DNA of 64,000 nt from Bryum argenteum. Its lineage: Eukaryota; Streptophyta; Bryopsida; Bryales; Bryaceae. The position numbers were made by a program, and so were the translations under genes. Location: assembly GCA_037043015.1 (NCBI GenBank), contig CM073325.1, positions 9,341,001-9,405,000 of the forward strand, written 5' to 3'. The notes beneath the pieces are model-generated. The model was given only the letters and a program-made list of their open reading frames with translations, was not told the origin of the DNA and ran no database searches. Position 1 is the first letter of the stretch. The number at the start of each line of letters is the position of its first letter. Below, one piece after another: positions 42,358 to 57,986 of this stretch.

Positions 42358-42599
42358 CAAGGTTGTCATATCGGGCGTGTTGAGGCAATCGGGCGGACAA
42401 AACGGACGTACGAGTTGTCCCGGACGGACGGGCGTGCCCGCCCACCTTGTTTGAAGGGGGCGTGTAATTTTTTCATGGGTAAGAAACTTTGCAGTAAAAA
42501 GCCACGTAGGATGTGACGTGTAAGTCCATCGTGGCGTCGGGGCGGGTGAAATCGTGCCATGGCGAGTGAACTTTTGTTAGGGCGAGTGAACTTTTGAGA

Positions 42600-42950
42600 G
42601 GGCGGGTGAACTTTTGAGGGGGCGGGTTACATTGGTGGCGGGGCGGGGAGGGGGGGGGGGAGGGGGTAGGGGCGGGGAGGGGTAGGGGCGGGGAGGGGGT
42701 AGGGGCGGGGAGGGGGTAGGACGGGGAGGGGGTAGGGCGGGGGAGGAGGGGTAGGGCGGGGGGGGGTTAGGGGCGGGGAGGAGGGGGGGGGCGGGGGTAG
42801 GGGCGGGGGGAGGGGGTAGGGGCGGGGAGGGGCGGGGGGGGTAAAGGGGGTAAGGGGGTTAGGGGGTAAAAGGGGGGTAAGGGGGTTAGGGGGGTAAGGG
42901 GGTAAGGTGGGTTAGGGGGAGGGGTAAGGGGGGGAGTAAGGGGGTTGATG
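42600..42950. repeat. G-rich simple tract, left of module I
   Basis: Units such as GGGGCGGGGAGGGGTA repeat for about 350 bp. The + strand is nearly free of C beyond single bases and has many potential quadruplex runs. Confidence 0.9.
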
Positions 42951-43015
42951 CGTTTTCATTTTTTTTTTTAAAAAAATTTTCTTGAATTTTTCTTTCGAGA
43001 ATTTTTTTAAATAGA

Positions 43016-43196
43016 AATATCGTAGTATTTACAAATTGATTCATGCATAGGTTGAGTGGTATTAGGCAAGGTATGCATATGAGCGGTTGGAAGAGTGAGG
43101 AGGGGTGGGAATAAGTAAATATGTGCACCCAAATCAAAACAATGTAATTAAATATGTCATAGGACTAAGTACACATGCATCGAATAAGAGAAATTG
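43016..43196. repeat. 3' cassette shared by modules I and III
   Basis: Blocks such as GATTCATGCATAGGTTGAG, AATATGTGCACCCAA and CATCGAATAAGAGAA recur in the same order and orientation at 53745-53885. Each copy lies just past the 3' end of a minus-strand gene, so it may carry the terminator or polyadenylation region. Confidence 0.75.
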
Positions 43197-43468
43197 CCTT
43201 ATTTTTCATACATAAGGCGAATGTAATGTAGTAAAAAGTAGAAAGCATGAATAATAATATGATATAATATAATTCATAGTGAATAACGATACAACGTAGA
43301 TATAAGGAAATTATATATATTCTCACAACACATAATCTGAACTTCTCTATTTTTTTTTTCTTTTTCAATAAACTTATGCACTATAATAGACTAATAATAG
43401 TGTCTAATAAAGGACTACAATAATGATGAGAAGTTCTAAAATACCCAAATAGATAATATAAGTCCGTT

Positions 43469-46400
43469 CTACTTATTAAAACGATTTGATCGCCGCACCC
43501 TTTTAGTGGATGTACCCTCCATGTTGGGATCTCGGATGAGGTCTTGGAAAACAACGTCATCATCATCGGGCGCCTCATCGCACTGTGGGTCACCATCATC
43601 GTCGTCGTCGTCGTTGTTGCCACGTTCAATATCATTGTCGTCGTCGCTATCACTTGAAGAACAAGTAGACTCATTGCGAAGAAGGGCTATTTTTTCGCCG
43701 TATAGATTTTCCTCAAGTCTAATAACCTTGTGTCTCTTTGCTCTGGGACACTCCCCATCCGAATTCACCGGCGGTCCTCTAGGAACAACAAAAGCTGGTG
43801 TTGATGAAGTGCGACCAGGAACATATGTGTCCACGAATGGTTCAATTACCGTGTTTGGGTTCCTCCCCCCTATTCCTAATGAACAACGTCTGCTTGGCCT
43901 GGAAGACAAGACATTGCCAACATTCTGTCCCCCTCCATCTACAGTGTCTGCAATGCCTCTAGGCCGTATCCATTTTGTAGTGGATGTTGAGCCTCCAAAC
44001 CCTCCGCGGTCTATGTTTCCGCTAGGAGTGTTAGTTCCCCCACGTCCTCTAGCTCCGTTTCTTCCACGTGCTTGGTGGTATTGTCCCATTGGATGATGGA
44101 TAGCTGGCATAGGGATAATAGGAGGCCTCCCACGGGACCCATCAGATTGGGAAGCTCTTCCACTAGCATTTGTTGCTCCTCCACTAGTATTTGGTGTAGG
44201 TGTATTTAGCCCAGAGACTGTTCTGGCGACCGGAATATCCGCGTGCATAGGGTCAACATCATCGGTGAATTCGAATGCATCGTGAATCCTACTGATATTC
44301 GGATCAAGACATTGGGGCGCAACAACGGGTGTAATAGTTCTCCCAATCCCTCCCAATCTTGATGCATTTGGGCTATTTCCCACTTCTCGCGGGGCCACAT
44401 CTTCAAAACGATCCACAATTGTTGTATAGGTATTGGGAGTTCCAATAGTACCAATTGTGCCATCTTCTCCCTCGTTCTGCTCATTATCCTCATTGTTTCC
44501 GAAAGAGGGGTGGTTGTAGTTAACATCATGAGCGGGTATGGTTTGATTTGCTTCACGATCTAGCCCATGATCTGAATCTTCGTTTTCCGAATCCAATACT
44601 GTAATCCGCGCTTGATTGATGCCGACATTAGGGCGATTGTCTGGCGATGGAATGCGACGAGTAGGACTTGTACTCCATGCTCCAGCACCCCAACGGATTG
44701 GCTCTTGGTCATCGTCCATTGCATCGTCTTCACCGTAATATTCCCTACTCTCCCCTAGAAGGTCCGCACCTTCAGCCCAGAGATCTGGATTTTGTCGGTA
44801 CTCTCTACCTTCCCAATTGGCTTCCATGTCACTATCGTCCTCTTCTGATAGGAACTCTCGGTTGGGCTCATCTACCGAATCGGGCCGAGGCATCCGGGTG
44901 CAATCCTCCGAGTTGGCATTGTCTTCATACCAGGCCAAGTGGTTCGGGCCCCTGGTCTTTTCATGTCTACACGGCCATTGGTATAGATATACACTAATGT
45001 CTCTCGCTTTTCTGGGCCTAACCGATTTCGGCTCTTATTGTGCACAAATGAGTAAGCACTCCAATTACGCTCACATGAACTAGTCAACATGTGAGAGACA
45101 ATATGCGTACGCTATTTTGGAAAGGTACTGATCTCCAATCCTATACCACCATTGATGGGGGAGCATGTTCATTGCACGGATGTCGAAGGCAATGTCGGGG
45201 CTATATGGCCCTGTACCTTCGTCATACTCTTGTAATTCGGATATGACGTCTTCATACTTCACACCCACCACGTCTTTTAATTTACGAATTACACGATATA
45301 GCGCAGGAGGGCTACGCCATCTTGCTTTAGCGCTGCATTCTCCTTGAGATATGGATTCAAGAGGGCAGCTGCGTAGTGAAGATCCGTAAAACACATGGCC
45401 CTCCTCGCTTTGAATGAATCCTCCAATATTGTTGCAATATCTGGTCGGACGCTAAATGGTGGATCCCTGAATGAAGTCACATGTTGATGCAATCCTTGTA
45501 GTATGAGCCATGCCTTACCCATTGCGGGTTCTCGGCCATCAAACACGCGTAATGCTTTCAAAACCTCCTGCGTCATGTAAATGAAATTCTTGCACCGCTG
45601 CCAGAAGGCCCCATCCTCAATGGTGCGCACGATATTGCGCCAGGCGGTGGCTGCCCGCTCCCCTCCCATCCTGTCCCTCAAGGTATTGGTATAGTTCTGA
45701 ACTCGGGGATGGTCTTTCAGTGCCTCTAGGACAGGCTTGAGTTTGACGAGTCGGTCCATCATCAACATATTGCATGCAAAGCGCGTCTCCCCCGGCACCA
45801 AGATTGAGAGTTTAGGACTCAATTCACGAAATGTTGCCATTGTTGCATGATGGTTCCTAATATAATGGCACAACTTTCTTGCCCTCTCGATAAGGTCCTT
45901 GAAGATGTCGATTTTTGCCCAATCTTCCAATAGGAGATCCAAAGCATGAGCCATGCATCCTTGCGAGAAAATCCATGGATACTCCTCGATGATACATTTC
46001 ATTGCTCCAAGCATGTTTGCAGCGTTATCCGTACACACTGCAGTCACATTCTTAGGTCCCACCTTCTCAATGAATACTTTGAGTTTGTTTGCTATATACG
46101 TCGCAGATTTTGTCTGCCCAGTGGTGTCAATGCTTCCTAGGAATACATCTCCAGGTGGGCACATCATCATCACATTCATGAGGGGCCTACGATTAACATC
46201 GTCCCAACCATCGGTGCATATGGACACCCCATACGCGGATTTTGCAAATCCAGTTCTTGACTCAATCTCCTTCTCGACTCGCAATCTGTTGGGTTCTATG
46301 AGATTAGTCCTGAATTGGTGATAAGATGGAGGAACATAGTCAGACCTCGCCTTGGAAGTTGCTAAAACCGCTTCAATAAAAAACGGGTTCCTGGCCACGT

Positions 46401-56900: not shown

Positions 56901-57255
56901 GAAGATCGTGACATAAATTGTGAAATCCTTCCTCATTCGCCCCAAGGTAAGACCTATGCAAATCTGCCATAGTTCGTATCTCATAGAAATGTATACCATT
57001 CCGTCGAGCAAATTCGAGATACTCCTCGGTTGGCATAAGTGGTGTCTCTTCCTCCTGTAGCAAGATCGAATTGTTCTTTTTTGACCCTTTACTTTTTTTC
57101 TTTTTTCCCTTTCTTTTCCGTGATCCCGATGAAGTAGGGTTTGTAGATTCTGTCTCCTTTGGAATTTCCTCTATTTCTTCACGACGGTCAAGGGGGGTTT
57201 CCAAATCTTGATTTCCGTGTCGCATACTCGAACCTTGGCTCCCTTCACCCTCCAT
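53993..57255 (-). pseudogene. module III: divergent protein-kinase-like gene; frame broken
   Basis: From ATG 57255 the first exon encodes a Ser/Lys-rich region with KRKGKKKKSKG (nuclear-signal-like) and a helical part ending near NVSPNPGCPV. A long intron (about 55253-56800) separates it from an exon starting NFYDHGAWLDLRVV. The next 200 residues lead to a glycine-loop-like GGYGKV. A stop at 54599 and two frame changes follow, but the remaining kinase marks are clear: YLHNDITPTNVLL (catalytic loop, H.D....N), GLCDWG (DFG equivalent DWG) and WVAPELWF (APE). The arginine of HRD is Asn. It is not close to the kinases at 27715 and 37550. Carriage of a kinase by a hAT element is unusual. Confidence 0.6.
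55925..56470. repeat. 180-bp tandem repeat, three copies, in the module III intron
   Basis: The block GACTTTGAAGGACGAGATC recurs at about 55944, 56124 and 56304, an exact 180-bp period (60 codons). On the + strand the third copy is open (TKNWEACLRD; ARTREKSLFYQ), while copies 1 and 2 have stops, so it may derive from a coding repeat. Confidence 0.85.
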
Positions 57256-57390
57256 TTCGAATCTGAGAAAAAAACGGCGAAAAACTCCTCCTCGTCTTTG
57301 AAAAACACCACACCAAGTGCCCACACTAACTCAATGAAGAAGTAGTGCTTGGCAACTAGTGGAGTGAGGTGAAGAATGAATCAACTTGGC

Positions 57391-57397
57391 TTTTATA
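57391..57397 (-). promoter_or_regulatory. TATA-like box of module III
   Basis: TATAAAA on the minus strand about 140 bases upstream of ATG 57255. The leader has an AAAACTCCTCC stretch resembling the other modules but is otherwise diverged. Confidence 0.5.
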
Positions 57398-57459
57398 GGG
57401 AGGGGAGTGGAGGCACTTGGAGTGTGGTAAAGGAAAGAAGGGTGGGCCAACCCGCCTCC

Positions 57460-57780
57460 CCCTCCCCCCCCCGCCCCTGGTCCCCCCCCCGCCCGCCCCC
57501 CCCCCCGCCCGCCCCCCCCCCCCCCCCCCCCCCCCCCCCCCCCCCCCCCCCCCCCCCCCCCCCCCCCCCCCCCCCCCCCCCCCCCCCCCCCCCCCCCCCC
57601 CCCCCCCCCCCCCCCCCCCCCCCCCCCCCCCCCCCGCCCCCCCCCCCCCCCCCCCTCCACCCACCTCCCCGCCCCGCCCCCCCCCCCCCTAGCCCCCCCC
57701 CCCCGCCCCCCCCCCCCCCGCCCTGCCCCCCCCCCCCCCTAGCCCCCCCCCCCCCCTCCCCCCCCCCCCGCCCCTAACCC
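57460..57780. repeat. C homopolymer-rich tract, about 320 bp, right end of the hAT element
   Basis: Contains an uninterrupted run of well over 100 C (about 57520-57635) plus further C runs split by single G or T. Length in such a run is unreliable in assemblies. Confidence 0.9.
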
Positions 57781-57986
57781 CTTTCACCCGCCCTGTCCTC
57801 AGCCTACGTGGCGCATACGTGGCGGCCAAGTGGCTTGGTTTTTACCCAAACCCTTGCCACGTCCTCGTTTTTTTACCTAAATTAAAGTCAACAGAGGTTT
57901 GACCGTATCGGGCGAGCGAGAGCTCTATCGGACGGACAAGGCGGACGGACGGGCGGGCGGGGTGCCCGCCCGGTATGACAACCTTG

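Follow-up and report, generated by a model that had tools for sequence, protein, structure and literature searches.

A ~14-kb hAT transposon family of the moss Bryum argenteum with predicted RING-H2 and protein kinase genes beside the transposase

A 64,000-nucleotide stretch of the Bryum argenteum genome (contig CM073325.1, positions 9,341,001 to 9,405,000, forward strand; hereafter the window) contains a large DNA transposon of the hAT superfamily at positions 42358-57986. We consider this element to be probably a copy of a giant multi-gene hAT family in which two genes besides the transposase (module I), encoding a predicted RING-H2/coiled-coil protein (module II) and a predicted protein kinase (module III), are old accessory genes whose products would help the element in trans. 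Units of ~13-15 kb with hAT-type ends and 8-bp target-site duplications insert as a whole in this genome, and sequence comparisons support modules II and III as old parts of the hAT lineage and not recent captures or nested elements.

The window element is a single insertion with matching empty sites

The segment is bounded by inverted CAAGGTTGTCATA motifs, and its two ends agree at 19 of their first 20 bases, the first 13 being identical. Abutting both ends, the octamer GTGTAGGG occurs exactly twice in the window and nowhere else in it. The boundary features are as follows:

42350-42357, no strand: left target-site duplication GTGTAGGG, single copy in empty sites
42358-42377, plus strand: left terminal inverted repeat CAAGGTTGTCATATCGGGCG, a terminus found family-wide
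57967-57986, minus strand: right terminal inverted repeat, matching the left repeat at 19 of 20 bases
57987-57994, no strand: right target-site duplication GTGTAGGG, single copy in empty sites

The genome analysed comprises 258.8 Mb in 25 contigs, with the window at C5:9341001-9405000. Elsewhere on the same contig, the joined flanks of the window element were found without an insertion at C5:14549472-14549871, identical over 400 of 400 bases (100%) and with GTGTAGGG present once, and four further full-length matches to the joined flanks with one GTGTAGGG were recovered at 92-98% identity. These places look like empty copies of a repeat that received the window element. Given the exact 8-bp duplication, the matching termini and a 400-base empty site that holds the 8 bp only once, positions 42358-57986 represent one hAT insertion event. 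An earlier note on this DNA had drawn the same conclusion from the duplication and the termini, and the empty sites it suggested looking for bear it out.

Besides the window copy, 12 long copies of the family (read in 24 stretches) and 16 shorter stretches were read, giving 29 sequences. Two of these copies have an empty site as well: the site of the 12.8-kb copy A_C10 is found unoccupied in sequence flanking the short copy s029 (junction-spanning match of 294 bp at 96%), and a reciprocal match for s029 lies in the flank of A_C10 (95%).

Gene content of the element

All three modules lie on the minus strand in the window, in the coding order III-II-I:

43469-46952, minus strand: module I, predicted hAT transposase gene; start ATG as in the open A_C10 frame; interrupted in the window copy
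50506-52864, minus strand: module II, predicted RING-H2/coiled-coil protein gene; interrupted in the window copy; 17 relatives
53993-57255, minus strand: module III, predicted protein kinase gene; split by a putative solo long terminal repeat (LTR) in the window copy; 13 relatives
55247-56845, no strand: solo-LTR-like insertion of 1,599 bp, TGTGAACC...GGGCTCACA with TTGGT/TTAGT flanks; not part of the family element

In the window copy, none of the three modules has an uninterrupted frame. The earlier note had described a three-module element, which stands, and the common strand and the interruption of every frame are to be added to that description.

Module I is assigned as a hAT transposase from its domains. 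The window open reading frame at 45289-46635 matches DUF659 at 123.2 bits (cut-off 34.7), and an open stop-to-stop frame of 1164 amino acids (aa) in A_C10 matches both DUF659 (PF04937, 121.9 bits, cut-off 34.7) and the hAT dimerisation domain Dimer_Tnp_hAT (PF05699, 29.0 bits, cut-off 21.4). Residues D257, D318 and E638, which we take to be the DDE triad on the basis of known hAT motifs, are invariant in the 15 aligned transposase proteins. No Pfam match to a BED zinc finger was obtained at E <= 1, a C-x2-C motif and later H/C residues being visible by eye only. The element is accordingly classed as hAT by its 8-bp duplication, terminal inverted repeats, dimerisation domain and presumed DDE residues, with the BED finger unconfirmed.

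Most of module II is covered by an open frame of 742 aa in copy G_C3, with long predicted helices of coiled-coil type. Seven of the eight positions of the RING zinc ligands are invariant in 12 proteins, the eighth being His or Cys, and a profile of the module matches solved RING domains (best E 6e-7). Its fold model was poor (predicted local distance difference test (pLDDT) 54.5, predicted template modelling score (pTM) 0.28), and Foldseek returned no match for it at E <= 0.001. On these sequence features, module II is predicted to encode a RING-H2/coiled-coil protein, probably a ubiquitin ligase.

Module III combines a kinase domain with a helical N-terminal domain. In copy M_C1b the Pfam Pkinase model (PF00069) scores 31.7 bits, exactly at its cut-off of 31.7, and by our own motif assignment all 14 proteins compared have the kinase Lys, Glu, HxD His, Asn, DWG Asp and APE, and 13 of them also the HxD Asp, with Asn in its place in the other. 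The model of P0001, a relative of module III with 78% identity in alignment A1 (pLDDT 70.7, pTM 0.64), gave 1786 solved-structure matches at E <= 0.001, and the 50 listed are all kinases. Module III is thus predicted to be a protein kinase with conserved catalytic residues.

The 1,599-bp insert within module III starts with TGTGAACC, ends with GGGCTCACA and lies between TTGGT and TTAGT, and we take it for a solo LTR. Its site is uninterrupted in 12 of 12 other long copies (11 by exact probe, G_C3 by blast map), and because the insert is absent from them the native element is ~14 kb long. A native length of 15.6 kb was rejected, as the insert adds 1.6 kb; the earlier note's 15.6-kb hAT element with modules therefore holds as a hAT unit with its modules and not as a length.

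Upstream and downstream sequences link the genes further, and two repeat-rich regions separate modules I and II:

47084-47245, minus strand: promoter/leader of module I with TATATAAG, identical to the module II leader at 141 of 163 aligned columns
52857-53016, minus strand: promoter/leader of module II with TATATAAG, a near copy of the module I leader; overlaps the module II start
53640-53900, plus strand: 3' flank of module III, related to the module I 3' flank (42931-43200) at 176 of 250 aligned columns
47823-48621, plus strand: 129-bp tandem array of 6.2 copies between modules I and II, kept in many gene-less short copies
48828-50211, plus strand: C-rich region with repeated units whose number varies between copies, kept in many gene-less short copies

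The likeness of the two leaders includes both TATATAAG and the ATG context, and the TATA box of module III differs from that of modules I and II. In module I the ATG that matches the one of module II is cut short by a stop six codons later, and the transposase frame opens downstream of it, so the module I leader may be spliced or untranslated. Taken together, the three genes look like an assembled set. No Rfam family was found in the element at threshold. Within the C-rich region, a palindrome-like stretch of ~70 bp (TCCAAACATTCCCTCA...TGAGGGAATGTTTGGA) was seen by eye to recur about every 550 bp; a script pattern did not retrieve it.

The three modules travel together within one family

Exact matches to the 20-bp terminus number 166 forward and 173 reverse (339 ends) across the genome. 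A chance origin of the termini was rejected, the reversed-pattern control giving 0 and 0 matches genome-wide. Both ends are visible in 25 of the 29 sequences read, with one or both ends of K_C1a, s037, s047 and s048 missing from the stretch read. The 8-bp duplication is exact in 22 of the 25, holds at 7 of 8 bases in two (M_C1b and s031) and is absent from one (s036). All ten long copies outside contig C1 (10,568-14,998 bp) have exact duplications, all mutually different. The short copies s030 and s031 have both flanks in common and are probably one duplicated insertion.

Whether the modules travel together in copies with the same termini, a point the earlier note had raised, can be answered in the affirmative: 12 of the 13 long copies including the window have a coverage of at least 0.89 for each module (from codon coverage and blast maps, those of copies J to M and of some short copies being seen only in part). 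In the remaining copy, H_C2, most of module II is gone; of the ten long copies outside C1, nine retain the three modules. Searches of the genome with each module, for which the best 40 scored places were considered and linkage counts are lower bounds, had III after II, with side and strand as expected, at no fewer than 21 of the best 40 places and on the other side at none; I followed by II was likewise found at at least 21 of the best 40, and at least 12 loci show all three modules.

This linkage bears on the proposal that modules II and III entered a hAT as independent elements by nested insertion, which we regard as highly improbable. It would account for the gene-less and partly gene-less copies that have the same ends, and the solo LTR shows that true nesting has occurred in the window copy. 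However, the interior of the window element has no further pair of family termini (CAAGGTTG occurs once, and within the element its complement is confined to the right end), ten other sites hold the same composite, each with an 8-bp duplication of its own, and module III was never on the wrong side of module II among the best 40 places. At the junctions of the partial copies H_C2 and s034, moreover, the two pieces share 4 and 6 bases, as in microhomology deletions. Nested insertions were rejected on the missing internal termini and the repeated composite. The mapped copies without modules keep both ends, with break points that vary among copies, and the family includes gene-less copies of 3-8 kb; by their sequence such copies look like internal deletions. 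The earlier note had named same-ended copies lacking modules II and III, with those modules found as separate elements, as a sign of nesting, and what was found instead are these apparent deletion derivatives.

Individual positions were available for the first 100 of the 339 termini in contig order, all on the first 24.4 Mb of C1. Among these 100, at least 12 facing pairs are separated by no more than 320-373 bp and, as judged from the spacing of the ends, resemble miniature inverted-repeat transposable elements (MITEs).

Contig C1 (44.1 Mb, 17% of the genome) holds 26, 29 and 28 of the best 40 places for modules I, II and III, respectively, and only 8 of the best 40 left-end places, which were ranked by their similarity to the window copy. 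C1 may be a sex chromosome or a heterochromatic one.

Distant relatives point to an old association

Database searches returned 13 relatives for module III, 17 for module II and 26 for module I (22-76% identity in the search tables). These proteins keep long frames and come mostly from short metagenome contigs; for 48 of the 56 the longest contig is below 5 kb, which places the neighbours of most relatives out of reach. Among named organisms, the liverwort Riccia sorocarpa has a kinase relative (27% over 36% of the query) annotated on a 51-Mb contig, and Chara braunii a DUF659 transposase relative (26% over 15% of the query). One kinase relative is filed under a Bacilli metagenome-assembled genome (MAG), and we take it for misbinned eukaryotic DNA. 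No relative turned up among viral contigs scanned with the kinase, transposase and RING alignments.

The most informative relative is the 6.3-kb contig L049 (CADCWO010000266.1), filed under a cyanobacterial (Synechococcales) MAG. It encodes the C-terminal portion of a hAT transposase (43% over 240 aa) and, 0.7 kb beyond it on the same strand, a stop-to-stop RING-protein frame of 875 aa. Most of this frame shows relationship to module II (26%, E 3e-62), and the protein exceeds the Pfam RING cut-off (36.9 bits, cut-off 27.3). With its eukaryotic-type hAT and RING genes, L049 is probably a misbinned eukaryotic contig. The terminus CAAGGTTG is absent from both of its strands. We consider L049 the best evidence for an old association of modules I and II, and because distant relatives of all three modules keep long frames and modules I and II stand side by side in one of them, modules II and III appear to be old parts of the lineage.

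A Pack-type capture, in which an ordinary hAT recently took up two host genes that have since been amplified along with it as passive cargo, is an unlikely origin of the two genes. In its favor, the frames of modules II and III are interrupted in most copies, their signal of selection within the genome is weak, and the Riccia sorocarpa kinase on its 51-Mb contig indicates that a host-gene relative may exist. Such capture would be hard to reconcile, however, with the presence of one and the same pair of whole genes, and not differing fragments, in 12 of the 13 long copies, with relatives elsewhere whose frames are long and whose catalytic or zinc-binding residues are conserved, with the common promoter/leader of modules I and II, or with a distant hAT transposase adjoining module II in L049.

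State of the reading frames and selection within the genome

Taken singly, the modules are open or nearly open in different copies: module I in A_C10, most of module II in G_C3 and the kinase part of module III in M_C1b. Frameshifting indels number 1-40 per module in the non-reference copies outside C1 compared to 0-5 in the two C1 copies read, and because of this difference part of the frame breakage may be assembly error. In-frame stops number 0-2 per module per copy.

Selection was assessed by the ratio of nonsynonymous to synonymous polymorphism (pN/pS), and values for the real frame are given below with those for the two shifted frames in brackets, followed by the p-value for third-position excess (module II in two parts, IIa and IIb):

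Module I: pooled 0.57; variants in at least two copies 0.53 (0.56, 1.09); single-copy variants 0.67 (0.79, 0.90); p = 0.03
Module IIa: pooled 0.39; variants in at least two copies 0.39 (0.67, 0.81); single-copy variants 0.50 (0.76, 0.98); p = 0.0002
Module IIb: pooled 0.64; variants in at least two copies 0.75 (0.67, 0.55); single-copy variants 0.46 (0.87, 1.16); p = 0.09
Module III: pooled 0.49; variants in at least two copies 0.42 (1.34, 1.35); single-copy variants 0.61 (0.86, 1.41); p = 0.11

On variants in at least two copies, the real frames of IIa and III have lower values than both of their shifted frames. In this weak test, modules II and III seem to be under no less constraint than the transposase. 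Since the within-genome test is weak, the case for function of modules II and III rests mainly on their relatives.

Several results weigh against the reading of modules II and III as old, functional accessory genes. Selection within the genome is weak to moderate, and on variants found in at least two copies the real frame of IIb does no better than the shifted frames and that of module I hardly beats one of them. No copy among those read has all three frames open, and the search for an unbroken copy, suggested in the earlier note, failed in that each module is open or nearly open somewhere and never all three together. The family's own copy of the RING domain scores 22.6 bits in Pfam, below the cut-off of 27.9. 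In L049 the gene order is I then II, opposite to that of the window, and no kinase match was found in the genome that holds L049, where an empty answer shows nothing. Linkage of module III to module I or II has been seen only in the Bryum argenteum genome.

These observations also raise the prospect that the family is a dead relic, its once-useful genes decayed in all copies and its movement either ended or confined to short copies. We think this less probable, with perhaps one chance in four. Consistent with decay are the lack of a copy with three open frames and the closely spaced terminus pairs among the first 100 listed, which imply that short copies may account for many of the 339 ends. 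Conversely, the 400/400 match between the window element's flanks and its empty site suggests a recent jump of a full-size copy, the transposase frame of A_C10 is open over 1164 aa, and part of the frameshifts points to assembly error.

Proposed roles and comparison with known transposons

Under the reading we prefer, that of a multi-gene hAT family with old accessory genes, the transposase would cut and paste the element, and the RING protein and kinase would assist the element in trans. Their most likely targets would be host factors for silencing or repair, which they would modify or remove, or the transposase itself, which they would control. The gene-less copies of 3-8 kb would arise by internal deletion, as would probably MITE-like ones of ~0.3 kb, and full elements could mobilise both. 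The earlier note had proposed a class of plant DNA transposons with accessory proteins acting on the host cell; the accessory genes find support in the copies and relatives, and the action on the host stays at the level of suggestion. A bolder version, which we hold tentatively and rate slightly below an even chance, is that a giant multi-gene hAT lineage carries a dedicated ubiquitin-ligase and kinase pair targeting host silencing, DNA repair or the cell cycle, by analogy an anti-defence or licensing kit like VANC or transposon-borne TET, selected across distant hosts.

Plant cut-and-paste transposons are usually pictured as a transposase between two ends, and plant hAT elements are usually a few kb in size. 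With plant hAT elements of the Ac/Tam3 type (DUF659), the window family has in common 8-bp duplications, CAAGG ends, DUF659 and dimerisation domains, presumed DDE residues, and internal-deletion and MITE-like derivatives. It differs in being ~14 kb long with two extra conserved genes, and these two genes are the difference from known hAT elements. A model for their possible function is VANC of VANDAL21, a Mutator-like element of Arabidopsis, an accessory protein that helps the transposon against host silencing; VANDAL21 belongs to another superfamily, and VANC is neither a RING protein nor a kinase.

Accessory enzyme genes beside a transposase are described for other elements. The fungal hAT7 elements of rust fungi, like some other elements, carry TET/JBP genes; they resemble the window family as hAT elements with an accessory enzyme gene and differ in their 7-bp duplications and in the enzyme, a dioxygenase, with no RING or eukaryotic-type kinase gene mentioned in the portion of the source consulted (PMC12730594). 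IS3EU elements carry an alpha-kinase gene and have 6-bp duplications (PMC12730594). They are likewise DNA transposons with a kinase gene as a standing accessory, but they belong to another superfamily, and theirs is an alpha-kinase whereas module III is predicted to belong to the ordinary protein-kinase family PF00069. No hAT element with a RING or kinase gene was noticed in the literature searched, a limited search that does not show absence from print. If true, our reading would mean that hAT elements are able to retain accessory genes through which they act on the cell, and it would provide two defined proteins for asking how a DNA transposon gets round host control.

Sequences surrounding the element

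To the left of the element, consecutive long plus-strand frames of 669, 648 and 183 aa at 31754-36259 read, by their motifs, like a Copia polyprotein. This Copia-like element is flanked by two similar protein-kinase genes at 27685-28887 and 37505-38851 (Pkinase E 2e-47 and 5e-44), which, as far as we looked at them, are ordinary kinases and not relatives of module III. To the right of the element, two long plus-strand frames of 304 and 292 aa lie at 59834-61969, with no Pfam match at E <= 0.01.

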